From a virus, in the IMG/VR virus record IMGVR_UViG_3300028388_001880, positions 1 through 22,295 of that record: a DNA stretch of 22,295 bases; one strand, 5' to 3'. Made by a program: the position numbers and the translations under genes. This document shows, piece after piece, positions 1,348 to 21,164 of the stretch. The notes beneath the pieces are model-generated. The model made no database searches. It was not told the origin of the DNA and saw nothing but the letters and a program-made list of their open reading frames with translations. Every line of letters begins with the position of its first letter. Within the stretch, counting starts at the first letter, position 1.

Positions 1348-3696
1348 ATGGCAGAAAAAATAGTATCACCTGGTGTATTTACCCGCGAAAATGACCTTTC
1401 ATTCTTACCACAAGGTATTGGAAATATCGGAGCGGCTATAATCGGACCCTTTAAGAAAGGTCCTGCGTTCTTACCAACCGTTGTAAACACACAACAGGAA
1501 TTTGAAGAAATTTTCGGCAGACCTGATGGAACTTACTATACAGGTTACACCGTACAGAATTATTTAAGAGAATCGGGAACTGTAACCATTGTTCGAGCAG
1601 GAGGAATTGGTGGATATTCACATGGAGCACCAATTGGTATTTATGCAAGTGGTTCAAGCGGTGATACATTATTGGGTGTATTACACGTAACTGATAACTT
1701 AATTGCAAGTGAAAGTGTAGGATTTACTGGTGTAGTATTGGAATCACAACCATCATCATCAGCATTTACTATTTCGGGAAGTACCTTAGACCCCGTATCT
1801 GCTTCTATTAATCCAGCCGATGCTAATGATATCAATGATGTATTTGGTTCATCTGCAATAGTTGGAACAACTGGAAAAAATGCTTATGCATACAAATATT
1901 TCCAATATGCTGCAACAGTAGAATCTGCTGAACTTGAAGTATCAGGTTCAACCGTTGTATATTCAGCACTTGGAACACAAGATTTTGGAACTGATATTCA
2001 AGAAGCATCTACACCTTGGATTAAATCACAAGCATACGGAGCAGAAAGATATGATTTATTCCGTTTCCATACTTTAGGACATGGTACTACCTATAATCAA
2101 GAATTTAAGATTGCAATATCAAACGTAAAACCAAGTACTTCAACAACTAACGATTTCGCAACATTTACTGTTACGGTTCGTGGATTTAGTGATACTGATA
2201 GACGTCCAACGTTTAAAGAATCATTTTCTGGTGTAAACATGAATCCTGCTTCACCTAACTATATAGCAAGAGTGATTGGTGATTTGAATGTAACAATTGA
2301 TTCAACGGGAAAACAAACAATTACAGGTAATTATTCAAACAACTCTAACTACATTCGTGTAGAAGTTGCCGCTGAAAATTCATTCCCTGAAAATGCTGCA
2401 CCATTTGGACACGGAGCATATACAAATCCTATCTATGATGGAACTGATGAATCTCGTGTTCCTGCAGCTATATTCTCAACCGGTTCAGAAAATAATACAG
2501 GAAACAGTTCAACAAACTTTTCAGGTATTGATTTAGAAACCGCAGTTGTTAAAAAACAAAACAATGCAATACTTGCACCGATTCCCGCCGATGCAACAGT
2601 TGGTGGAAATACAATTTTCGCCTTTGATACTGATGTAACAGCTATCGTAGATGGAGTATTGAGTACCTATAATTTCGGATACTCAATGACAGGTTCTGAT
2701 AATACTGATGTAAACAAAAGACAGTTCTTGGTAGGATTCCAAAGTGGATTTGATGGAGCATCACCCGCAATTCCAATTAACTTAGGAAGTAGTATAACTG
2801 CAACTAACTCACAAGGATTTGATTTATCAACTTCAACTGCAAGTGGTTCGGTAGCATATACAAAAGCAATCAATTCAGTATCTAACCCTGATGATTTCGA
2901 TATCAACTTAGTATCGGCTCCTGGTGTTATCAGAAGATTACATTCTTATGTATTCGATTATATTACTGATATGGTAGAAACAAGACAAGATGCTTTCTTT
3001 ATTGGTGATTTAACGGCAGAGAATGATACTATTACACAAGCATTGAATGAAGCAAACGCAGTAGATTCTAACTATGTTGGTTCTTACTACCCTTGGGTTA
3101 AAACAATTGATGTAAATACTAACAAATTAACTTCAGTACCACCTTCAGCATTAATGCCAGGTGTTTACGCAGGAAGTGATAGAGTATCGGCAGAATGGTA
3201 TGCACCCGCAGGTTTAAATCGTGGTGGTATTACAGGAGCAGTATCAGTATTGAATAGATTAACACATTCTGAAAGAGATGAACTTTATGAAGGTAAAGTA
3301 AATCCAATTGCAACATTCCCTAATGAAGGAATTGTGGCATACGGACAAAAAACACTTCAAGAAGCAGCATCGGCACTTGATAGAATCAACGTAAGAAGAT
3401 TACTTATCAAAGTTAAGAAGTATATCGCAAGTACTTCAAGATACTTGGTATTCGAACAAAATACAGCTACAACAAGAAATAGATTCTTGAATACTGTAAA
3501 CCCATACTTGGAAGGAATACAACAAAGACAAGGTTTATTCGCATTCCGTGTAGTAATGGATGAAACAAACAATACTCCTGATGTAATTGATAGAAACATC
3601 TTAAAAGGTGAAATCTTCTTACAACCAACGAGAACGGCTGAATTCATAGTACTTGACTTCTCGGTTCTTCCAACTGGAGCATCGTTTGAATCGTAA
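1348..3696 (+). CDS. Contractile tail sheath protein (T4 gp18-like)
   Basis: 782 aa, longer than T4 gp18 (659 aa). The N-terminus (S-P-G-V-F-T-R-E-N-D, then G-A-A-I-I-G-P-F-K-K-G-P-A, then F-G-R-P-D-G and Y-T-V-Q-N-Y-L) is the standard sheath opening, which makes the inter-subunit strand and first domain. The middle (about residues 100-510) is a long Ser/Thr/Gly/Asn-rich beta region, the exposed and variable insertion of the family. The C-terminal third has the conserved handshake domain: I-N-V-R-R-L-L-I, R-N-R-F-L-N, P-Y-L-E, then G-E-I-F-L-Q-P-T-R-T-A-E-F-I-V-L-D-F. It polymerises around the tube and contracts to drive injection. The tube gene follows, as in T4. Confidence 0.95.
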   Translation: MAEKIVSPGVFTRENDLSFLPQGIGNIGAAIIGPFKKGPAFLPTVVNTQQEFEEIFGRPDGTYYTGYTVQNYLRESGTVTIVRAGGIGGYSHGAPIGIYASGSSGDTLLGVLHVTDNLIASESVGFTGVVLESQPSSSAFTISGSTLDPVSASINPADANDINDVFGSSAIVGTTGKNAYAYKYFQYAATVESAELEVSGSTVVYSALGTQDFGTDIQEASTPWIKSQAYGAERYDLFRFHTLGHGTTYNQEFKIAISNVKPSTSTTNDFATFTVTVRGFSDTDRRPTFKESFSGVNMNPASPNYIARVIGDLNVTIDSTGKQTITGNYSNNSNYIRVEVAAENSFPENAAPFGHGAYTNPIYDGTDESRVPAAIFSTGSENNTGNSSTNFSGIDLETAVVKKQNNAILAPIPADATVGGNTIFAFDTDVTAIVDGVLSTYNFGYSMTGSDNTDVNKRQFLVGFQSGFDGASPAIPINLGSSITATNSQGFDLSTSTASGSVAYTKAINSVSNPDDFDINLVSAPGVIRRLHSYVFDYITDMVETRQDAFFIGDLTAENDTITQALNEANAVDSNYVGSYYPWVKTIDVNTNKLTSVPPSALMPGVYAGSDRVSAEWYAPAGLNRGGITGAVSVLNRLTHSERDELYEGKVNPIATFPNEGIVAYGQKTLQEAASALDRINVRRLLIKVKKYIASTSRYLVFEQNTATTRNRFLNTVNPYLEGIQQRQGLFAFRVVMDETNNTPDVIDRNILKGEIFLQPTRTAEFIVLDFSVLPTGASFES

Positions 3697-4339: not shown

Positions 4340-4507
4340 ATGTACAACGCAGATATTCAAAAAATAAAAAACGAGTTATTCCGTATTAAAAATAAGCTAG
4401 AGGATGATTATATCACGGATGATGAAATGGGTGGTAGAAATAAAAAAAGGATTGGAAATAAACTCCAATCCGTAAGAAAAGCTCTTAAAGAATTAAGCAG
4501 GTATTAG
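4340..4507 (+). CDS. Small basic helical protein, unknown (55 aa)
   Basis: Reading from ATG 4340 gives 55 aa; an upstream TTG in frame would place the start inside the terminator loop and promoter, so the ATG is preferred. The product begins M-Y-N-A-D-I-Q-K-I-K, is rich in Lys, Arg, Glu and Leu, and reads as two helices split by a D-D-Y-I-T-D-D-E-M-G-G turn. No family recognised. It has its own host-type promoter directly after a terminator, the layout of a moron or early accessory gene. Its stop (TAG 4505-4507) interlocks with the stop of the convergent gene, and its 3' half contains that gene's terminator hairpin. Confidence 0.65.
   Translation: MYNADIQKIKNELFRIKNKLEDDYITDDEMGGRNKKRIGNKLQSVRKALKELSRY
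4442..4471 (-). terminator. Rho-independent terminator for the minus-strand gene
   Basis: Read on the - strand: GGATTGGA (4471-4464), 7-nt loop, TCCAATCC (4456-4449), then seven T (4448-4442). The 8-bp stem plus T run is a textbook terminator about 33 nt beyond the stop of the minus-strand gene. It lies within the coding sequence of the + strand 55-aa gene. On the + strand the run of A precedes the hairpin, so it should not stop + transcripts. Confidence 0.8.
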
Positions 4508-4803
4508 AAAATATGATATCCTGAACAACCTCTTATTTTACCAGCCTTGGTAATATCTTTTTTGGTGAAACCATATTGTCCAGTCATACCAACACCTTTT
4601 ATGTTGATTATGTATCGGGCAAAACAGTTGGAGTTAGATGTATAACTAACTGAAATACCACCACCACATTTTTCTTCATAAAAGAAACAACCGTATTCGT
4701 TTACTGATTTTGATTTCAGATAAGTACGAATCTTAGATAGGTTAGCGTGACCGAAATGATTTCGGAGTATTTTTCTGATTTCTTTTTTTACTTTTGCATT
4801 CAT
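4504..4803 (-). CDS. Opposite-strand accessory protein, unknown (99 aa)
   Basis: The only convincing minus-strand gene. Start taken at the ATG complementary to 4801-4803 (M-N-A-K-V-K-K-E-I-R), because a promoter sits just before it; a longer in-frame extension to 4914 would run through that promoter. The product is 99 aa, basic, with an N-terminal helical third (K-E-I-R-K-I-L-R-N-H-F) and a C-terminal beta-rich part with four Cys (39, 46, 60, 93) and Gly/Ser-rich turns. Cys spacing does not match a zinc ribbon I know. With its own promoter and terminator it is a complete independent transcription unit, as expected for a moron carried by the phage. Function unknown. Confidence 0.65.
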   Translation of the reverse strand: MNAKVKKEIRKILRNHFGHANLSKIRTYLKSKSVNEYGCFFYEEKCGGGISVSYTSNSNCFARYIINIKGVGMTGQYGFTKKDITKAGKIRGCSGYHIF

Positions 4804-4822
4804 AGTTTTCAATCTTACAAGT

Positions 4823-4854
4823 CTAATATACGAATAATTTATGAAATTACCTAA
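4823..4854 (-). promoter_or_regulatory. Host-type promoter for the minus-strand gene
   Basis: On the - strand, TTAG (4854-4851), 20 nt, then TATATTAG (4830-4823), 19 nt before the ATG. The sequence TTAGGTAATTTC at its start and TTCGTATATTAG at its end closely track the polymerase promoter at 15281-15312 (TTTGGTAATCTC and TTCGTATATTTG), which supports a real promoter despite one mismatch in each box. Confidence 0.65.
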
Positions 4855-4891
4855 TTTTTTAACAAATAAAAGTGTTAAAGTTTTGTTAAAG

Positions 4892-4904
4892 ATATTTATT
4901 AATA
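4892..4904 (+). promoter_or_regulatory. Candidate late promoter for the 68-aa gene
   Basis: ATATTTATTAATA ends about 17 nt before the ATG at 4922. It shares the ATATTTAT core but lacks the trailing TATA seen in the strongest copies, so it is a weaker case. Confidence 0.35.
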
Positions 4905-4921
4905 ATAAAATCACTTAAATC

Positions 4922-5244: not shown

Positions 5245-6045
5245 ATGAACACAAATTATGCAACGGTGCAAAAAGCACCTTCTGCTTATGTAACTAAAAA
5301 CAAGCAGAGAATCAAACAACATGAAGGAACTGTTTATCTTCAAAATGGTGATACCTTCGAAATCGAAATTTACAATCCAACACAAAATCGAATCTTAGCG
5401 AATATTTCCCTTAATCAGGAATCGTTGGGAGGTGGTATTGTATTAAGACCAGGAGAGCGTGTTTTCTTGGAACGGTATCTTAATGAAAACCGTAAATTCA
5501 AATTTGATACTTACGAAGTAGAAAATAGTATTGAAAATGAATTTGCAACTTACAAAAATGGGTATGTTGAAGTAACATTTCATAAGGAGAAAATTTATCA
5601 AAATTCGATAAGTTGGTCAAATACTACAAGTCCATATTATACCTATTATAATCATACCGGTTCACCTGTATTTGGGGGTAATACAACTACGAGTGGTGAT
5701 GTTACTTTTAGTACAACAGGAATGGTTGGGGCAACCGCTAATTCTTTCATGGATATGGAACAACAAGCACCCGATTTAAGTGCTTTACGTGGTACATTGA
5801 GTAAACCAACTACTATGGAAACGGGTAGAATTGAAAAAGGTGGAGCATCTAACCAAGACCTTAAAACGGTAAATTATGAATTTGATACATTTTCATTTCA
5901 CAATGTAAGTTGGAGAATTTTACCAAAATCAAGAAAACCTTTAACTTCAAGTGAGGTTAATAAAAGGTACTGTACAGAGTGTGGTGCGAGAGTAAAGAAA
6001 GCAAGTTTCAAGTTTTGCCCTCATTGTGGTACTAAAGTAGATTAA
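5245..6045 (+). CDS. Phage protein with beta N-domain and C-terminal zinc ribbon
   Basis: 266 aa. Residues about 28-115 form a beta-rich domain (V-Y-L-Q-N-G-D-T-F-E-I-E-I-Y-N-P, then G-G-G-I-V-L-R-P-G-E-R-V-F-L-E-R, then F-K-F-D-T-Y-E-V-E) of a type I associate with phage particle proteins, though I cannot name it. Residues about 120-235 are low-complexity Ser/Thr/Tyr/Gly, probably disordered. The end is a zinc ribbon with C243-x2-C246-x11-C258-x2-C261, both pairs in the usual knuckle form (C-T-E-C-G and C-P-H-C-G). It is expressed from a candidate late promoter between tube and baseplate genes, so a virion or assembly role is likely. A regulator using the ribbon is an alternative. Confidence 0.65.
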   Translation: MNTNYATVQKAPSAYVTKNKQRIKQHEGTVYLQNGDTFEIEIYNPTQNRILANISLNQESLGGGIVLRPGERVFLERYLNENRKFKFDTYEVENSIENEFATYKNGYVEVTFHKEKIYQNSISWSNTTSPYYTYYNHTGSPVFGGNTTTSGDVTFSTTGMVGATANSFMDMEQQAPDLSALRGTLSKPTTMETGRIEKGGASNQDLKTVNYEFDTFSFHNVSWRILPKSRKPLTSSEVNKRYCTECGARVKKASFKFCPHCGTKVD

Positions 6046-9800: not shown

Positions 9801-11612
9801 ATGGCAAGTTTAATAGATTTATTTAAGAATTCAGAATTCGATGTTGCGGACGCACCTGATACTGAAACATTTATCGAACAAGAAACTGATGGAATTCGTG
9901 TAGCAAGTGGGGTTGATTTAAACAATCCTGTTTTCTATGGTAACGAAGCAGTTCGTATTGGTACACGTACAACACGTACCAAAGATACTATGTTAGAAGG
10001 TACTAATCCAACAGGGGGTGAACCTGGTCTATTAGATTCAGCAGTAATAAAAATAACAGGTGGTAGGGTAGAATCATTAACAGATGCGAGAAATAAGATA
10101 AATGATTTTATCGGTATTCCCGAAACACTTATACCAACAAGAGTAGCAGATAAAATACAAAAAGAAGGAAAAACGGTTCAACAGGTAATTGATGAACGTG
10201 AGGGAACTGAATTTGGAAAGTTCTTAAAACAAACGGGTGGTGGTAATTTAGATACTATTGGAAAACAAGCGTTAGGTCAAGGTATCGGAATATTAAAAGA
10301 TAAAGCCCGTACAATATTATTTGGTACTCCGTTAGAACCAACATTACCACAAGAAAATCAAGGCGGTATTATCTTTTCGGGTGACCCTGCTATATCATCA
10401 TTATGGGGTGATACTACTTATACAGAGTATCAAAACGAATTTGATTATAGAAAAGAAGATTTAACCGCAAGAGAATTACAGGAAGATAGTGCTGCCAAGT
10501 TCCAAGTAAATTTGGCGAACTTTTCACCTGTATATGGTGTACAACGTGGTAGTAAAAATATCAGAGATTCAGCAGCTATTGACCCTGAAAGTGGAGTGTT
10601 CTCAGAATATTCACCAATTTCACCATATACCTTAACAACGCCAGGATTAAGAGAACGTTCGTTAGAAGTAAAACGTGGTTTAGGTCTTGATGATTCAGGT
10701 AGGTATCGTGATGAAATTAATAGTACACCCCTTGGTGATATAACAAAAACAACTGAAGAATTAGAAGATTTAGATTTAATTCCATTTTGGGTAAGTAGAT
10801 ATGGAGCAGATAGAAGAATCCATTTTAGAGCCCTTTTAACGGGTATCGCAGAAAATGTTTCACCATCTTGGAATACTAATAAATTTTTTGGGAATCCATA
10901 TTCATTTTATACCTACGGTGGTGTAGAACGTAATGTAAGTTTTAACTTACTAATTTATTGTATGAATGAATTGGAGTTAAACAACAATTGGGAAAAGATA
11001 AACGCTTTAACTCGTTTAACATATCCAACGATAAACGAAAGTAATTATACAAATCCACCAATCATACAATTTAGAATTGGTGATATATATAATAACAAAG
11101 TTGGTTTAATTGAAGCACTTACCTATACACTTCCCGATAACGGAACATGGGAGATAGACCCTGTAATTGGATTGTTACCAAAAATAATTGAAGTTTCTTT
11201 AACCTTCAAGTTTATAGAACAAGAGGGAGCAGAAAATTCATTATATAACTATGAACGTTCACAAGCAGCAACTGCGAATGTAAATAATAAAGTAGCTAAT
11301 CCGATAACAAATCCTGTAACAGGAGTTGGTAATAGTGGATTAGGATATGTAGATACTAAAGCGAAGCCTATTAGTTTGAATATTACAAAACCACAAGTTA
11401 AAGTATTATCCGATAGCAGTAATCTTCTTAAACCTTCTGAAGAAAACGCCCAAGATGATGTTCAACTTGGAAGGTCAGCATATGTTGAAAGAGAAATTAA
11501 ATTAGGTACGAATAATGTTGATGATAATATCAGTAGAGTATTCAGACGTCCTAATTCAAGAATAAACAGAGAATTGGAATTTAGAACACCTAATTCAACA
11601 AGATTAGTATAA
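9801..11612 (+). CDS. Baseplate tube-end protein, likely gp48/gp54-like
   Basis: 603 aa, soluble. The N-terminal 320 residues are variable, Gly/Thr-rich and probably extended. From about residue 323 a conserved domain appears: I-P-F-W-V-S-R-Y-G, then I-H-F-R-A-L-L-T-G-I-A-E-N-V-S-P-S-W, F-Y-T-Y-G-G-V-E-R-N-V-S-F-N-L, W-E-K-I-N-A-L-T-R-L-T-Y-P, P-P-I-I-Q-F-R-I-G-D, and L-P-K-I-I-E-V-S-L-T-F-K-F. That succession is shared by tube-like baseplate proteins that cap or start the tail tube (T4 gp48/gp54 role) in many myoviruses. Placement between the tape measure and the LysM wedge gene agrees. Which of the two T4 proteins it replaces cannot be told by eye. Its stop overlaps the next ATG by one base (TAATG). 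Confidence 0.6.
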   Translation: MASLIDLFKNSEFDVADAPDTETFIEQETDGIRVASGVDLNNPVFYGNEAVRIGTRTTRTKDTMLEGTNPTGGEPGLLDSAVIKITGGRVESLTDARNKINDFIGIPETLIPTRVADKIQKEGKTVQQVIDEREGTEFGKFLKQTGGGNLDTIGKQALGQGIGILKDKARTILFGTPLEPTLPQENQGGIIFSGDPAISSLWGDTTYTEYQNEFDYRKEDLTARELQEDSAAKFQVNLANFSPVYGVQRGSKNIRDSAAIDPESGVFSEYSPISPYTLTTPGLRERSLEVKRGLGLDDSGRYRDEINSTPLGDITKTTEELEDLDLIPFWVSRYGADRRIHFRALLTGIAENVSPSWNTNKFFGNPYSFYTYGGVERNVSFNLLIYCMNELELNNNWEKINALTRLTYPTINESNYTNPPIIQFRIGDIYNNKVGLIEALTYTLPDNGTWEIDPVIGLLPKIIEVSLTFKFIEQEGAENSLYNYERSQAATANVNNKVANPITNPVTGVGNSGLGYVDTKAKPISLNITKPQVKVLSDSSNLLKPSEENAQDDVQLGRSAYVEREIKLGTNNVDDNISRVFRRPNSRINRELEFRTPNSTRLV

Positions 11613-11902
11613 TGGCAAGTAGATATCAAAATAACGAAACTAATAAATTAGATGATGGTAGAGTAGTTTATCGAACTAAAATCTATCCTAAGATACCGTT
11701 ACGAGATGATGATATTTATATCGCAACTCAAACGGGTGATAGATTAGATGGACTTGCATATCAATTTTATAATGATTCATCTCTTTGGTGGATAATCGCT
11801 GCTGCCAATAATATTCATGATGCACCCTTGGGATTGGCAGATGGAACTGTATTAAGAGTACCAAGAAATTATTCAGAAGTTATACGTGATTTTAATTCGT
11901 AA
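11612..11902 (+). CDS. LysM baseplate wedge protein (T4 gp53 / P2 gpX-like)
   Basis: 96 aa. After a short extended N-terminus, residues about 32-86 form a LysM-like domain: I-Y-I-A-T-Q-T-G-D-R-L-D-G-L-A-Y-Q-F-Y-N-D, then S-L-W-W-I-I-A-A-A-N-N-I, then L-A-D-G-T-V-L-R-V-P. The double Trp followed by an Ala-Ala-Asn helix is characteristic of the small LysM tail proteins in baseplates of contractile tails (gp53, gpX). It helps join wedges around the hub. Gene order (tube end, LysM, hub) matches that role. Start ATG overlaps the preceding stop, indicating translational coupling. Confidence 0.82.
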   Translation: MASRYQNNETNKLDDGRVVYRTKIYPKIPLRDDDIYIATQTGDRLDGLAYQFYNDSSLWWIIAAANNIHDAPLGLADGTVLRVPRNYSEVIRDFNS

Positions 11903-14300: not shown

Positions 14301-14708
14301 ATGAGTGATATAAGTAAAAGATATAATGAACTTAAACGAGATAATATTGCTCGTAGATTGAGTATAAAAATCAACGCTTACAAACCAAATCTTACAGAAG
14401 ATGATTTTACTCGTGGTTATGTTACACGTTATTTCGTTCAACGTGTAAATGATAAATCCTCACCTATCTATGAAGTATCGAGTAGAGATTTTACAGGATT
14501 ATCTACAAACCCATTATTAAATTCTACATCTTTACGTTGGAGATTAACTGGTCCAGAAAGACCAGTATATGACCCTAAAACAGGAAGAACACTTGATATA
14601 GGAATCAGAGAATCTAATAAAAAAAGTATAGAGTTGGCTTCTACAACCATGCCAAACTTAAAGTTATACCTTCCAAATACAAAACAGTATGCAAGACCCA
14701 ATGGATGA
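14301..14708 (+). CDS. Conserved baseplate-associated phage protein, unknown (135 aa)
   Basis: 135 aa, 4 nt after the hub gene. Begins with a helical K-R-Y-N-E-L-K-R-D-N-I-A-R-R, then a conserved-looking core R-G-Y-V-T-R-Y-F-V-Q-R-V-N-D, I-Y-E-V-S-S-R-D-F, S-L-R-W-R-L-T-G-P-E, and a Pro-rich end. The Y-V-T-R-Y-F ... L-R-W-R-L-T-G pattern occurs in small proteins of tail clusters, so it is probably structural. No enzymatic motif. Its 3' end overlaps the following gene. Confidence 0.7.
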   Translation: MSDISKRYNELKRDNIARRLSIKINAYKPNLTEDDFTRGYVTRYFVQRVNDKSSPIYEVSSRDFTGLSTNPLLNSTSLRWRLTGPERPVYDPKTGRTLDIGIRESNKKSIELASTTMPNLKLYLPNTKQYARPNG

Positions 14709-14910
14709 TTTAAATAAAGCCTATGAAGAAATCATCGAACCTAAGAATCTTATTAAGAATATGAATTATGATGAATTTGTAGATTGGGCAGAAATAGGTA
14801 CGAAAGAAGATATTGAGTGTGCAATAAGAGTATTTCAAGCGTGGGGATTGAAAGACCATGTTAAAATCATGAAAATAATAATAGAAAGAGAATCTTACAA
14901 AAAAGTTTGA
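14689..14910 (+). CDS. Small acidic helical protein, unknown (73 aa)
   Basis: Reading from ATG 14689 gives 73 aa; a second ATG at 14701 (M-D-D-L-N-K-A-Y-E-E-I) is an equally good start. The 14689 start overlaps the previous gene by 20 nt, the 14701 start by 8 nt. It is a helical protein with motif-like Y-D-E-F-V-D-W-A-E-I-G-T-K-E-D-I-E-C-A-I and F-Q-A-W-G-L-K-D-H-V, resembling a two-helix small domain. It ends the tape measure operon. Its stop codon TGA (14908-14910) overlaps the -33 box of the next promoter. Confidence 0.6.
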   Translation: MQDPMDDLNKAYEEIIEPKNLIKNMNYDEFVDWAEIGTKEDIECAIRVFQAWGLKDHVKIMKIIIERESYKKV

Positions 14911-14937
14911 TTCTTTCAGAAAAATTTTGTATATTTG
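14906..14937 (+). promoter_or_regulatory. Host-type promoter TTTG-N20-TATATTTG
   Basis: TTTG 14906-14909, 20 nt, TATATTTG 14930-14937: a perfect match to the Bacteroidota vegetative consensus. The ATG at 14945 lies 7 nt after the -7 box, so the transcript would be nearly leaderless. Confidence 0.82.
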
Positions 14938-15280: not shown

Positions 15281-15312
15281 TTTGGTAATCTCAAATATTT
15301 TTCGTATATTTG
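15281..15312 (+). promoter_or_regulatory. Host-type promoter of the small DNA polymerase gene
   Basis: TTTG 15281-15284, 20 nt, TATATTTG 15305-15312: perfect consensus. The ATG at 15318 begins 5 nt after the -7 box, so the mRNA would start at or within a few bases of the start codon. This rules against the in-frame upstream TTG at 15282, which lies inside the promoter. Confidence 0.85.
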
Positions 15313-15317
15313 TAGTT

Positions 15318-16586
15318 ATGGTTATAGTTGAAAGTAAACAAGAAGTTCAAAACTTCTTAGAGTTGTGGAATACGGAGATATCTACTATTATACCTATATG
15401 GTGTGATTTAGATAAACATCCGCAAAACAACTCATTATCTTTTCTTTTTGTATCATTCAAAGATGATAGTTACGTTATTCCATTTGAGCATACGGATTGC
15501 TTGACCCCCGAAATTGATTTATCCGAATCCGAAACAATGAAGTGGGTATGGGATAAAAAGAGTATTTTACAATGTAAAGACTTAAATATCAAGGGGTTAC
15601 GTGATATTCAAACTTACTTGTTCTTCTCTAAGAACGAAATATACCCGTTAGAGGATAAATTAGAGGTTCTACGAGGGTTTTACACCCGATTGGGTATAAG
15701 GGATGAGTTAGGAAAATCTATCCCTATAATGAAGTTTATAGAGGTCTTATCTCAAATCAATAAAGATTTCCAAAACCTTCCCCAAAATGAGAATGTTGGC
15801 AAGATTTGGATTGATGATGATATGATTCCTACCCTTTCAGAGGTCGAACGGTTGGGCATCAAGGTCGATAAGGAGAAATTCTTTGATAAGTGGGATGCAA
15901 AATACCACGCAAAACACCTTAAAGGAGATATTATTTATACTCAATTCAACCCATACACCATTACATCCCGCCCTGCAAACTCACATGGGGGTATAAACTT
16001 TAGCGCGCTTAACAAAGATGATGGTACACGGGATATCTTTATACCAAGGGAGGGTAAGGTATTTGTACAATTAGATTACGATGCGTATCATATACGGATT
16101 ATGGCTAAGATAATCAATTACGATATTCCTGATGATAGTGGACACCAATGGTTAGCTAAACAATACGGTTGTGATTATGGGGAAGCCAAGGTTAGGACGT
16201 TCCAAAACATATACGGGGGTATTCGTGATAAACACATACCGTTTTTCAAAGAAGTAGATAAGTTCATACAAACTTTCTGGTCAAACACCAAACATGGCGA
16301 GTTTATCCAAACACCAAAACGGAGAATCCCGTTGAAGTATGTACAAGATGCCAATGCCCAAAAGGTGTTCAACTACCTGTTACAATCTATGGAAACTGAA
16401 TTAAACATGGATGTACTGAAGAAATTGAACGAAATGGGCCATACACCGCTTTTTTATACCTATGATTCATTTTTGTTTGAAGTTGATAAAGGAGATAAGG
16501 ACACGGTTAGAAAAATCAAAGAAATTGTAGAATATAAAGGATTTCCGAGTAAAATCGGGGTTGGAATGAACTATTCCGAAGTGTGA
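15318..16586 (+). CDS. Minimal family-A DNA polymerase, degenerate exonuclease domain
   Basis: 422 aa from ATG 15318, against roughly 600-900 for most family-A enzymes. Residues 26-60 look like the proofreading motif I region but with D30-L-D32 rather than D-x-E, followed by F-V-S-F, Y-V-I-P-F-E-H. Residues about 169-188 (M-I-P-T-L-S-E-V-E-R-L-G-I-K-V-D) match the Pol I segment before the thumb. Only about 25 residues then separate it from the T-S-R-P region, where Pol I has about 110, so the thumb is nearly absent. Palm motif A is D253-Y-D-A-Y-H-I-R; motif B K291-V-R-T-F295-Q-N-I-Y299-G; N352 and Q356 match the Pol I helix; motif C is Y-D383-S. Both catalytic Asp are present. The gene looks richer in G and C runs than its neighbours and has a host-type promoter. 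Confidence 0.8.
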   Translation: MVIVESKQEVQNFLELWNTEISTIIPIWCDLDKHPQNNSLSFLFVSFKDDSYVIPFEHTDCLTPEIDLSESETMKWVWDKKSILQCKDLNIKGLRDIQTYLFFSKNEIYPLEDKLEVLRGFYTRLGIRDELGKSIPIMKFIEVLSQINKDFQNLPQNENVGKIWIDDDMIPTLSEVERLGIKVDKEKFFDKWDAKYHAKHLKGDIIYTQFNPYTITSRPANSHGGINFSALNKDDGTRDIFIPREGKVFVQLDYDAYHIRIMAKIINYDIPDDSGHQWLAKQYGCDYGEAKVRTFQNIYGGIRDKHIPFFKEVDKFIQTFWSNTKHGEFIQTPKRRIPLKYVQDANAQKVFNYLLQSMETELNMDVLKKLNEMGHTPLFYTYDSFLFEVDKGDKDTVRKIKEIVEYKGFPSKIGVGMNYSEV

Positions 16587-16628: not shown

Positions 16629-16970
16629 ATGTATGTATATAAAGCACATGTCACCAAAGTATATGATGGTGATACCATAACCGTTGATATTGATTTAGGA
16701 TTTAATATTTGTGTTAGAGGCGAGAAACTAAGATTACTTGGAATTAACACACCTGAAGTACGTGGCGAAGAAAGAGAACAAGGTTTAATTTCTCGTGATT
16801 GGTTAAGAGAATTAATTTTGGATAAAGATATTATTATCAAAACGGAAAGAGATAAGAAAGGCAAATACGGACGTTACTTAGGAACGGTTTTCATCGAAGT
16901 AGATGGTGAAGAAAAAAATGTAAACGATTGGTTAGTAACAGAAGGTTTAGCGGAATATAGAGATTATTAA
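16629..16970 (+). CDS. Staphylococcal-nuclease-like (thermonuclease) protein
   Basis: 113 aa, one SNase OB-fold domain with no signal peptide. It shows the family's successive motifs: V-Y-D-G-D15-T-I-T-V, L-R35-L-L-G-I-N40-T-P-E43, and K-Y-G-R82-Y-L-G. By alignment with nuclease A these are the calcium ligand Asp21, catalytic Arg35 and Glu43, and Arg87. The second calcium ligand Asp40 is replaced by Asn, as in a number of G-I-N-T-P-E homologues. It would cleave DNA or RNA in the cytoplasm; a phage could use it to degrade host nucleic acid. The next ORF starts 1 nt after its stop, so the two are probably translated together. Confidence 0.88.
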   Translation: MYVYKAHVTKVYDGDTITVDIDLGFNICVRGEKLRLLGINTPEVRGEEREQGLISRDWLRELILDKDIIIKTERDKKGKYGRYLGTVFIEVDGEEKNVNDWLVTEGLAEYRDY

Positions 16971-16971
16971 T

Positions 16972-18807
16972 ATGAAGATTAATCATAAAATTATAATTGG
17001 TACAATACTACAAGAGTTATCATATAGAATACCTTCGGGTATTCCTGATTTAACAAACCATGAACATTTATCAGTATTATCAGAAATTTTAACTGAATGG
17101 AATTTAGATGATATTAAGGGGGAGTTATTTCGTAATTTGAATGAAGCAGAGGATGATAAAAAATTTACAAACCCTGATTTAAATAAAACCGTTCAATACA
17201 AAAGTAATGATGGTGAAGAAAAAGAAGGAATAGTGGGTAACTTATTAAGATTACCTAAAGATGAACCTGGAAGAATCGCTGCTGAAAAAGCACTTGGTAA
17301 TGATGAAACACGTATCCAAAAAGCGATGAAAGATTTGGGTGGTGAAAATTCACCAACAAACGATACAACACCTGGCGATGGTCAAGGAGGTGAAGAACAA
17401 CCCGAAGCACCCCAAGGAACTGCTATAAATCCAAGTACCAAAGGAGGAAAGAATTATACAGACCAGTTACCGCCTAATGACCCTGCAAGTACTGCTCCAA
17501 AAGAAGAACCTGTGGTAAAAACAAAAGAGGTAGATATTACAGATTTCTCACAAAAATCTGAATCTACTGAAGGTTTATTCGCTGGTCCTGCTCAATACAA
17601 AAGAGTAACGGTTGGCGATACCTCAAAGGTAGTAAGACCGATGATAGACCCACAAACAGGTAACGCATTAGATACATCCAAGAAAAATGATAGATTAAGG
17701 GCGATAGAAATTTTAGATTCACGTTTAGATTCGTTGAATGAAAAAACTCTTGCGGGTGTAAAAAAATTAGAAGAAAAAGGAGTTCCAAAAGGAGAACGTA
17801 CTGCCATATTAAAATGGTTAGGTGAGGTTGGAGAACTTCAAGCATACCGTTCTCTTTTACAATCAGATAAAGTAAAAGATACTTACTTATTAACCGATAG
17901 TGAGCCTAAGAATGATTTGATTATCACGGGTGAAACTAGCGATAGAAATTTATATTTAAAAGGTATTTCGGTTAAAACAACCAAGATAAACGAAATGGCT
18001 AACAAACGTGGTAGTTCCGTAAAACCTGATTTAGAAAATGGTATAGAAGGAGCAGAAACACGTACATTACAATTAGATGGTGTAACTGATGAAGTTGATG
18101 CGAGCGTGGTAATGAATTCGTTTCTTGAATTGAGAAAACGTATTATCAAAGAATTATCAATGGGTAAAGCAAGACAGAATCCTGATACTAAAGCAACCGA
18201 AGTAGTAATGGAGGATGGTGAGGTAGTTTCTATCACCGAGTACTTCAGACGTGCTAAAGTAACACCGAATATTATTAATCAGGTATTTGATACAGATAAA
18301 ATTTTCCAAGGTTCAAAATCTCCTATCAGAAGTTTGACGGATGATAACGTGAATGATGAAATACAATCTGCTCAATTACGAGAACACTTCAAACAAGAAT
18401 TTGTTAAGATGGTATCCGAAAAACCTGATTTAACGGTGGCAGATATGGAAGATATTATTGTAGATAAATTTATTAACATCTATGATAAGATTGGTGCAAA
18501 CCTAACACCTGCTACTGATACCATGATATCATATTATGAGGAAAGTGGATTCGCAGAAAACAAGATTATACCAAAAGAAGATGCCGAAAATAAAATCAAA
18601 GATGTGTTGGAGGTTGGTGATTTTTCTGAAATAGATAAGAAAACTCAATTTAAAACTATTCTTGGTCTTGATTTTACAGGTAGAGGTATGGGTAAAAAGA
18701 AAGAAGGAAAGGGGTATGTTGATGGACAATCCTTTGGTAGACCTGATAAAAGATTGACACCCGAACCGATTGGAATGGATAATTATATTGATAATTATGT
18801 TAAATAA
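16972..18807 (+). CDS. Large phage protein, possible PD-(D/E)xK-like core (611 aa)
   Basis: 611 aa. N-terminal helical region of about 110 residues (Q-E-L-S-Y-R-I-P-S-G-I-P-D; P-D-L-N-K-T-V-Q-Y-K; G-I-V-G-N-L-L-R-L-P-K-D-E-P-G-R), then a Pro/Gly/Thr-rich disordered linker to about residue 185. The middle holds G-E285-V-G-E288-L-Q-A-Y, then N-D315-L-I-I-T-G, then K-G-I-S-V-K335-T. The E ... D ... x-V-K spacing looks like a restriction-endonuclease fold, but Ser stands where Asp or Glu is usual, so this is tentative. The C-terminal 200 residues are helical and acidic. The layout of conserved head, linker and domain could equally be a virion or scaffold protein. It is coupled to the SNase gene. 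Confidence 0.6.
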   Translation: MKINHKIIIGTILQELSYRIPSGIPDLTNHEHLSVLSEILTEWNLDDIKGELFRNLNEAEDDKKFTNPDLNKTVQYKSNDGEEKEGIVGNLLRLPKDEPGRIAAEKALGNDETRIQKAMKDLGGENSPTNDTTPGDGQGGEEQPEAPQGTAINPSTKGGKNYTDQLPPNDPASTAPKEEPVVKTKEVDITDFSQKSESTEGLFAGPAQYKRVTVGDTSKVVRPMIDPQTGNALDTSKKNDRLRAIEILDSRLDSLNEKTLAGVKKLEEKGVPKGERTAILKWLGEVGELQAYRSLLQSDKVKDTYLLTDSEPKNDLIITGETSDRNLYLKGISVKTTKINEMANKRGSSVKPDLENGIEGAETRTLQLDGVTDEVDASVVMNSFLELRKRIIKELSMGKARQNPDTKATEVVMEDGEVVSITEYFRRAKVTPNIINQVFDTDKIFQGSKSPIRSLTDDNVNDEIQSAQLREHFKQEFVKMVSEKPDLTVADMEDIIVDKFINIYDKIGANLTPATDTMISYYEESGFAENKIIPKEDAENKIKDVLEVGDFSEIDKKTQFKTILGLDFTGRGMGKKKEGKGYVDGQSFGRPDKRLTPEPIGMDNYIDNYVK

Positions 18808-18859: not shown

Positions 18860-20713
18860 ATGAAAAATTTCTTCAACGAAGTAATGACGGAATTGGAGTT
18901 ACGTTATGGTGAACCAATTACATTGGAAACCGATGCCGAACGCCAAATCCTAAAACAAATTTTAGAGGAAAGTAAGAGTGGTTTATTTGGTAAAAAAGCC
19001 AAAGTAAAACAACGTAGATTAGCCAAGAAAAAGAAACAGGAGGTTACTCAAACTAATCCTGATGAAATCACTTTTGGATTATTCCATGAAATTTATGATG
19101 ATGTAGATTTTCTTCTACAACATTCCTCAGATGCATATGAATTAGTTACTAACGGATTCCGTAAAGGAGCATCTTATAATGCTCCCGGAAATCCTGGTTC
19201 TGCTTTCAACGAAGTTGTTTCGAATGAAGGTGTAATGATTCTGAATAAAAAAGAAATGAGTATAGCATCACTTGCTTTAGTTCTTTTTTATCGAATGAAA
19301 GATACCGAACTTGCCAAACAACAAAAAGACCAAGTACGTAATGGTATCGAGATTCCTGATAGGATTTCTCGTTATGACCAAGACCTTTATATCAATTGTG
19401 TTTTATCCGCACGTTCCGCGTATCAGAAATACAATCGTATGGTTAAAGGTGCGAACAAACTTAATCGTAATAATACAGTAATGGTATTTGGTGGTTCTGT
19501 TAAAGATTTGAAAGAACTATCCGAGTATATTATTTCTGCTGATACTTGTTATGTTTATGATGAAGAATTAGATCATCTTGTGAAAATTCCAAGATTGAGA
19601 TTATTCAATTGGGCTTTATCAGCAGGGGGTGGTAAGAATACGGGAGATACGGTAGTTTTAACTGTATTACCAAACGGTGATATTCTATACGATGGTTGGA
19701 GTGATAAAAAATCACTTTCAGATATTCAATCCAATGGTACATTGTTGAATGATTTTAACAACTACATTAAGTTGTTGGATAAGATGGATGATTTGGATAT
19801 AATTATTCCTGATGTTCATAAGGAGGGTGCAATCAATATCATTAATGAGTACAAAAATCAAATCGGAGAAATAGAGAAAAAATATAAGAACGCTGCCTTG
19901 GGTGAATCAGAATATTTTCTATCTCTTTCACCAAAGAGAAAAAAGTTACTTGGTATTTGGCTGGATATACAAGAAACTTTTTATCTAAAAAACAAAACAT
20001 CCAATCACGTAGAGAATTCTAAGAAAGCGGATGGTTTCGAAGGTTCGCCTAATCAAGATTATGTAGATTATCTTTTAAAAGAAGGTGTACATAAAAGTGC
20101 TACCCGTTGTAAGGTTATTAACCGTATGGGTATTATGGAACGTGCTTGGTTAAGTTTCAAGAAAGAACAAATTCCATTTGAATTGGATTCTCGTGGTATT
20201 GTAAGTTTATCAAGAGAAGATGCAATGTCTAAACATACTCAATGTATTGAGGATTTGAATCAATTTACTATTAACTACTTTGATACTTATACTCCACTTG
20301 GTACTTTACTTACTTTCTTGGATGGTATTGAAATGCTACAAATCGCGAAGATAAACAAACCTGTTGATTTGGATGATTATGACCAATACTTGAAACGTAA
20401 TACTCACCTTATTATGGGTGGTGTAAATGTATCACCGAAGTTGATTAAGAAATCTTTGAAGATGAAAGATATTTCATCGTTCGTGATAAAGAATGAAATC
20501 TTGATTAAAGAAGAAATCATGTACGATACAAAGAAGAAATACGTAACGGGTAAAAACATCCATTTGGTAGTTCAATATGAAAATGGTATGGAAAAAACTA
20601 TTGGAGTTAAAACATATCGTTCCCGTAGTGGCTTTTCAGGAAAAACATCAAATACCACTACTTGGTCAAATGAAATTGTTAAACTATTTAAAGAATCACG
20701 TAATTTGGTATAA
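18860..20713 (+). CDS. Unrecognised 617-aa phage protein
   Basis: 617 aa, no signal peptide or membrane segment. N-terminus: M-K-N-F-F-N-E-V-M-T-E-L-E, an acidic helix, then a very basic stretch K-K-A-K-V-K-Q-R-R-L-A-K-K-K-K (about residues 45-60) that could bind nucleic acid. The middle has a Gly-rich segment L-S-A-G-G-G-K-N-T-G-D-T-V-V and V-L-P-N-G-D-I-L-Y-D-G-W-S-D-K-K. The C-terminal part is mixed helical, ending in a beta region with K-T-Y-R-S-R-S-G-F-S-G-K. It is read from a host-type promoter rather than a late element, so it may act early in infection, although its neighbours are late-type. I can name no family or active site. Confidence 0.7.
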   Translation: MKNFFNEVMTELELRYGEPITLETDAERQILKQILEESKSGLFGKKAKVKQRRLAKKKKQEVTQTNPDEITFGLFHEIYDDVDFLLQHSSDAYELVTNGFRKGASYNAPGNPGSAFNEVVSNEGVMILNKKEMSIASLALVLFYRMKDTELAKQQKDQVRNGIEIPDRISRYDQDLYINCVLSARSAYQKYNRMVKGANKLNRNNTVMVFGGSVKDLKELSEYIISADTCYVYDEELDHLVKIPRLRLFNWALSAGGGKNTGDTVVLTVLPNGDILYDGWSDKKSLSDIQSNGTLLNDFNNYIKLLDKMDDLDIIIPDVHKEGAINIINEYKNQIGEIEKKYKNAALGESEYFLSLSPKRKKLLGIWLDIQETFYLKNKTSNHVENSKKADGFEGSPNQDYVDYLLKEGVHKSATRCKVINRMGIMERAWLSFKKEQIPFELDSRGIVSLSREDAMSKHTQCIEDLNQFTINYFDTYTPLGTLLTFLDGIEMLQIAKINKPVDLDDYDQYLKRNTHLIMGGVNVSPKLIKKSLKMKDISSFVIKNEILIKEEIMYDTKKKYVTGKNIHLVVQYENGMEKTIGVKTYRSRSGFSGKTSNTTTWSNEIVKLFKESRNLV

Positions 20714-20756: not shown

Positions 20757-21164
20757 ATGGAAAGAGATATGCGAACTCAATTGTTATGCACCTTCACAAC
20801 GAAGAAGGATTTAGAAGATACTTTAAACAAGATACAAGATATATATTCAGTAGTTTACAATTACATCTATATTCTACAAAACAAAACGAATTTAGAAGAA
20901 TTGTACGTTACGTATAATATAGATACAAGCACTCGTCCTGATGAACCACTAAAAGATACAATCTTGGTACATAGGAAAAAAGAATTCAATGTACTTTATA
21001 CGATAAACGCCCTGAATCAAATTATACGTGAAGAAACAGGTGGACAACTTGATAAGACCCACCGTATAAATTGGGAGAATTATAGGAATTCAATAATCGT
21101 TACAAACGTAGAAGGTTCTCGTAAGATACCAACACGAATATTTGAAATTATAGATTTTACATAA
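20757..21164 (+). CDS. Conserved phage protein, unknown function (135 aa)
   Basis: 135 aa from ATG 20757, or 131 aa from ATG 20769 (M-R-T-Q-L-L-C-T-F-T-T); the second is favoured because 20757 is too close to the promoter element and M-R-T-Q-L-L-type starts are what I associate with this protein in marine T4-like phages. Core features are K-D-L-E-D-T-L-N-K-I, V-V-Y-N-Y-I-Y-I-L-Q-N, L-E-E-L-Y-V-T-Y-N-I, T-I-L-V-H-R-K-K-E-F-N-V-L-Y-T-I-N-A-L-N, and I-N-W-E-N-Y-R-N-S. It looks like a compact alpha/beta domain. Function unknown. It heads a cluster of genes with capsid-targeting-like presequences. Confidence 0.7.
   Translation: MERDMRTQLLCTFTTKKDLEDTLNKIQDIYSVVYNYIYILQNKTNLEELYVTYNIDTSTRPDEPLKDTILVHRKKEFNVLYTINALNQIIREETGGQLDKTHRINWENYRNSIIVTNVEGSRKIPTRIFEIIDFT

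Follow-up and report, generated by a model that had tools for sequence, protein, structure and literature searches.

Introduction

The divergent family-A DNA polymerase divPolA1 was named by Yutin et al. (2024; Virol J 21:200, PMC11348598), who described it in 14 phages, including Flavobacterium phage immuto, as having a truncated thumb, an intact palm and an inactivated exonuclease. These phages also encode a regular polymerase and carry replication genes downstream, and the involvement of divPolA1 in replication was deduced from the gene arrangement (PMC11348598). A literature search for the name returned otherwise only the preprint of the same work. By description, divPolA2 of barbaviruses can be set beside divPolA1, as it is likewise an extra thumb-less PolA, found alongside a regular PolB, but it is reported without an exonuclease-fold domain, with an unrelated N-terminal domain and in a variable neighborhood (PMC11348598).

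The DNA analyzed here (the window) is the whole 22,295-nucleotide stretch of IMG/VR virus record IMGVR_UViG_3300028388_001880. A sequence-only reading had singled out one of its genes as a specialized family-A polymerase with almost no thumb, a view that is borne out by alignment, by 80 relatives and by a Klenow-like model. The gene and its parts are as follows:

15318..16586, plus strand: divPolA1, thumb-less family-A DNA polymerase, 422 amino acids (open reading frame, profile matches, alignment and model)
15318..15797, plus strand: degenerate 3'-5' exonuclease-fold domain, residues 1 to about 160 (unconserved catalytic columns; Klenow fold alignment over the whole chain)
15846..15965, plus strand: residual thumb region, residues 177-216, with short helices at 185-191 and 194-200 (alignment and model)
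16074..16091, plus strand: motif A, DYDAYH, with catalytic D253 and with H258 at the steric-gate position (alignments)
16188..16217, plus strand: motif B/O-helix, K291...F295...Y299-G300 (alignments)
16455..16478, plus strand: motif C, Y-T-Y-D383-S-F-L-F (alignments)

A Divergent Member of a Described Family

The window ORF matches the PHROG family phrog_17 ("DNA polymerase") with an E-value of 6.5e-15, while its Pfam DNA_pol_A score of 18.3 bits falls under the 34.3 cut-off, hence the polymerase is very divergent. Judged by the profile match to Klenow in the PDB and by the predicted fold, it is a family-A polymerase despite the sub-threshold Pfam score. The immuto divPolA1 is found with the window protein by tblastn (2e-33, 87% of length) and a joint alignment has 36 invariant columns; the ORF is thus divPolA1 of Yutin et al. 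(2024) and belongs to an already described family. It differs from the immuto protein, with which it shares ∼27% identity, in having kept the exonuclease-site residues D30 and D79, and from published divPolA1 loci in being followed by a small nuclease and then by two long unidentified ORFs.

A single-sequence search of IMG/VR yielded one relative, and a search with a five-member alignment at least 580 stretches encoding relatives. Among annotated phage records, 6 of 50,697 have a match covering at least 80% of the query, namely four of Flavobacterium phages immuto, Microcystis phage Mel-JY01 and an uncultured 484-kb phage. In cellular genomes, relatives occur only on four contigs, all in MAGs, which are likely phage contigs binned along and hence weak evidence for a host. 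Conservation was counted in an alignment of 80 non-redundant relatives, which are 405-476 residues long except for two shorter fragments (330 and 359 residues). The sequence-only reading had allowed for normal-length homologs of which the window frame would be a truncated copy; the homologs are equally short, which rules out a truncated or frameshifted normal PolA. With relatives of equal length, invariant residues (below) and a median dN/dS of 0.16 (88 close pairs), thumb loss is neither chance nor assembly error, and on this comparative evidence the gene is a maintained, intact thumb-less polymerase and no decayed copy.

Active Site and Thumb Compared With Klenow

A profile built from 65 relatives was aligned to the Klenow fragment of E. 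coli Pol I, which it matches at 1.5e-7. In motifs A and C, D253 corresponds to D705, H258 to E710 and Y382-D383-S384 to H881-D882-E883; in motif B, Y287 corresponds to R754, K291 to K758, F295 to F762 and Y299 to Y766, and further on N352 pairs with N845 and Q356 with Q849 (Pol I numbering assigned by us). The alignment confirms the register of the motif residues named from the sequence, all of which are present: both catalytic aspartates and the motif B Lys, Phe and Tyr, with the motifs in order, as well as Y-D-S in place of H-D-E in motif C. The proposed His at the steric gate also stands, as H258 is found in 80/80 relatives, and D253, R218, K291, F295, Y299 and Q356 are equally invariant (80/80 each; D383 in 79/79). 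By comparison, Tyr at the Arg754 position holds for the window (Y287), but the column varies (Y in 61, V in 13, I in 5 and L in 1).

From the pre-thumb Glu to the TGR motif there are 39 residues in the window protein and 125 in Klenow, so that ∼86 are missing; the earlier figures of 25 and ∼110 were taken on slightly different landmarks and described the same shortening. The interval is 21-41 residues in 80/80 relatives. An AlphaFold2 model made with the 65-member alignment has a mean pLDDT of 94.6 and a pTM of 0.90, and in a Foldseek search against the PDB, Klenow is the top match (1.3e-19), followed by other Pol I and Pol theta structures, with alignments spanning 520-657 columns for a query of only 422 residues. 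Between E177 and T216 the model has just two short helices, and it shows no thumb elsewhere in the chain. In the exonuclease-fold domain, D occupies the D32 column in 18/80 and the D79 column in 28/80 relatives, with motif III assigned from sequence order only. The D-L-D noted at exonuclease motif I is present in the window, yet the column is degenerate and D-L-D just one of its variants. Because the window copy keeps D30 and D79, total exonuclease loss is for this copy something that we infer.

Taken together, divPolA1 shares with Klenow the overall fold, the order of exonuclease fold, palm and fingers, the catalytic aspartates and the equivalents of K758, F762, Y766, R668, N845 and Q849, and differs in the missing thumb residues, the exchange of Glu710 for His, the loss of Arg754, the change of HDE to YDS and the degenerate exonuclease residues.

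Gene Neighborhood

Upstream of divPolA1 lies a contractile-tail module (sheath, tube, baseplate hub and wedge genes). The flanking genes referred to below are:

1348..3696, plus strand: tail sheath protein (phrog_23, 3.8e-68)
11612..11902, plus strand: baseplate wedge protein, gp53-like (in 51/51 relatives with enough upstream sequence)
14301..14708, plus strand: conserved 135-aa gene upstream, at the end of the tail module (homolog in 52/66 relatives with at least 1.5 kb upstream)
16629..16970, plus strand: small endonuclease, phrog_452 (unconserved at this site in relatives)
20757..21164, plus strand: p135, a 135-aa protein family accompanying divPolA1 (locus counts, confident model, no recognized fold)

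The sequence-only reading had placed the gene away from any replication gene of the window, a picture that does not hold for the family. The downstream order in relatives is p135, gp32-like SSB, RecA/UvsX, FEN-type 5'-3' exonuclease and DnaB helicase, sometimes also with a ribonucleotide reductase, and of the 67 loci whose downstream flank reaches 3 kb or more, at least 57 have SSB, at least 53 RecA, at least 44 the FEN-type exonuclease and at least 32 DnaB, these being minimum counts since the flanks are cut. The window shows no replication gene because its contig breaks off ahead of SSB; relatives sharing its flanking genes do have replication genes downstream. Scans of the window with Rfam and for tRNAs found nothing.

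Several other genes of the window deserve mention. A 611-aa protein (16972-18807) has counterparts at two relative loci (L002, 11313-12941; L005, 16415-17491), with which it shares mainly an N-terminal block (E-x-SYR...G...), the sequences being divergent beyond; the block is possibly a capsid-targeting leader on variable cargo. The following 617-aa ORF (18860-20713) has no convincing Pfam match and homologs in only 6 relatives, and is a variable cassette separating divPolA1 from p135. Within the tail module, a lone minus-strand ORF of 136 aa (4504-4914) sits in a gap among plus-strand genes, and a 266-aa protein (5245-6045) ends in a four-Cys zinc-ribbon-like motif (CTEC...CPHC).

The p135 Companion Protein

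p135 was identified in 62/62 relatives with at least 4 kb downstream, and the phage records holding it are the six that hold divPolA1; in the reverse check, divPolA1 was present at 28/28 p135 loci whose upstream flank reaches 7.5 kb or more. The two coding regions overlap or are separated by at most ∼45 nt in nine loci, all from the first set. The p135 model is confident (pLDDT 91.7), no match was found in Pfam, PDB sequences or PDB folds, and PHROG gave a single weak match (0.005) in 1 of 57 members. As a clade control, the phage records reached were counted, with 2647 for tail sheath, 77 for SSB, 19 for the gp53-like protein and 6 for p135, so that p135 is clade-restricted and its co-occurrence alone is no proof of partnership. 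Since the whole clade shares both genes, we treat a partnership as hypothetical, and a two-subunit polymerase of divPolA1 and p135, with p135 gripping the DNA as a split or replaced thumb, is decidedly unlikely.

Other Polymerases and Primases in divPolA1 Genomes

The window is a 22-kb fragment, too short for a second polymerase to show, and the counts given here come from relatives. Phage immuto encodes a second PolA of 777 aa, with a canonical exonuclease motif (DTET) and Glu in motif A (DYTSLE); Mel-JY01 has PolB and clamp-loader genes, and the uncultured 484-kb phage (LR756508) has PolB and PolC matches, so that the long reference records carry another full polymerase in 3/3 cases. Among the longest IMG/VR relatives, PolB is present in 10/12, the other two being 58- and 70-kb fragments. 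That divPolA1 is the phage replicase, as synteny might imply, is therefore ruled out, as relatives carry another full-length polymerase. At locus L005 and in record LR756508.1 (260-267 kb), the PolB matches of the 484-kb phage are divided between two frames (1022 and 625 aa), which suggests a split gene or an interruption by an intein or intron; the PolC match lies elsewhere, giving, with divPolA1 and PolB, three polymerases in one phage. Homologs of the Mel-JY01 clamp-loader genes were not found in the immuto record, hence a clamp may be unnecessary for divPolA1.

The relevant region is covered by three genomes (immuto, Mel-JY01 and G007), each with a DnaG-type primase, and where that genome half is present these primases rule out divPolA1 as a primase replacement. 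The contigs G002, G004, G005 and G008 are without DnaG, but also without the baseplate-wedge gene of that half, and are thus uninformative. The sequence-only reading had considered a terminal-transferase or primer-making role, for which no positive evidence emerged, and these primases speak against primer making.

Promoter and Probable Host

The suggestion that the gene has its own host-type promoter held up, as the motif recurs in front of relatives:

15281..15312, plus strand: Bacteroidota-type sigma-A promoter TTTGGTAATCTCAAATATTTTTCGTATATTTG, ending 5 nt before the ATG (motif counts in relatives)

The window motif, TTTGG-N-TATATTTG, was found within 150 nt upstream of divPolA1 in 20/74 loci, compared to 1.1% of random segments, and lies 4-9 nt before the aligned start codon in 27 loci, which are related by descent and are not independent events. 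A scan for E. coli-type sigma-70 promoters gave no excess over shuffles, and the Bacteroidota motif is the right one. In flavobacteria, TAnnTTTG is located at -12 to -5 and only 5.5% of mRNAs are leaderless (PMC9723704). With this spacing, a 4-nt gap puts the transcription start on the A of the ATG, and the divPolA1 mRNA is predicted to be leaderless or nearly so. Similar sites lie ∼90-120 nt ahead of the SSB gene in several relatives, and together with its own promoter these make divPolA1 look regulated with the replication genes and not with the tail genes. A second TTTG-N20-TATATTTG site (14906-14937) lies upstream of a small-ORF stretch; in relatives a similar site is often found ∼0.5-1 kb before divPolA1 and once ahead of a glycosyltransferase-like gene (L002, 8947). 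On the promoter type and the isolates, the host of the window phage is probably a member of the Bacteroidota.

Proposed Function and Alternatives

Family-A polymerases hold DNA with the thumb, and the function of the Pol I thumb is the general ground for expecting short synthesis here. We favor, at a probability of roughly 55%, an accessory role for divPolA1, namely short-patch synthesis without proofreading in concert with the SSB/RecA/FEN/DnaB module. As a second, accessory family-A polymerase of large T4-like phages, it would have kept the palm, the O-helix and the primer-end residues R218 and Q356 while losing proofreading and the thumb. Template-directed primer extension is suggested by the invariant primer-end and dNTP contacts, and short synthesis by the missing thumb and proofreading; divPolA1 may thus add short stretches to primer ends, at low processivity. 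In the company of the gp32-like SSB, the RecA/UvsX recombinase, the 5'-3' exonuclease and the DnaB helicase encoded downstream, it would fill gaps from Okazaki-fragment maturation or recombination intermediates in a role resembling that of bacterial Pol I, with genome replication left to the separate full-length polymerase. The tie to this module comes from its adjoining divPolA1 whichever regular polymerase the genome has (A or B checked), although the loci with this synteny belong to one phage clade, so that co-location could be inherited and not functional. We infer that divPolA1 is catalytically active, has lost proofreading, is of low processivity and serves in gap filling or recombination.

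The strongest rival to gap filling is translesion synthesis, in which divPolA1 would be an error-prone enzyme able to bypass damage in the manner of Pol theta/nu or DinB-type enzymes. A degenerate exonuclease without proofreading, an open thumb-less site, reduced fingers, the missing Arg754 equivalent and the His gate all fit such an enzyme, as do the Pol theta structures among the top fold matches and the nearby RecA; however, these matches reflect general family-A similarity, no lesion-bypass insert is seen and the fidelity-linked R668 and Q849 equivalents are invariant, and we consider this role unlikely. That divPolA1 is instead a replisome subunit, joining DnaB and the regular polymerase at the fork, e.g., to elongate RNA primers prior to hand-off or in lagging-strand synthesis, would agree with DnaB and SSB as constant neighbors and with the replication role inferred by Yutin et al. 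(PMC11348598), but the missing thumb speaks against processive work and regular polymerases are present, making it quite unlikely.

A primase or ribonucleotide polymerase is very improbable: His for Glu at the steric gate could allow use of rNTPs and the making or extension of primers, and His258 is invariant where the regular PolA of immuto has Glu, yet the O-helix Phe and the residues at the primer end resemble those of DNA polymerases, and DnaG-type primases are encoded in the three genomes named above. Even less credible is a catalytically dead structural or regulatory remnant, since the loss of thumb and exonuclease residues that would suggest it is accompanied by two invariant metal-binding aspartates in a gene under purifying selection.

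Significance

Beyond the published description (PMC11348598), the analysis adds the family size, the invariant His gate, the Klenow residue map and the selection estimate, as well as the association with p135, the recurrence of a leaderless-type promoter and the DnaG primase in divPolA1 genomes. Many aquatic tailed phages carry two polymerases at once, and in divPolA1 a widespread family has dropped the thumb with the active site intact, making it a natural test of a minimal polymerase. With a constant 135-aa companion and an invariant His gate, both the partner and the choice of sugar can be tested directly, and the isolated immuto phages with their Flavobacterium host provide a laboratory system for divPolA1.
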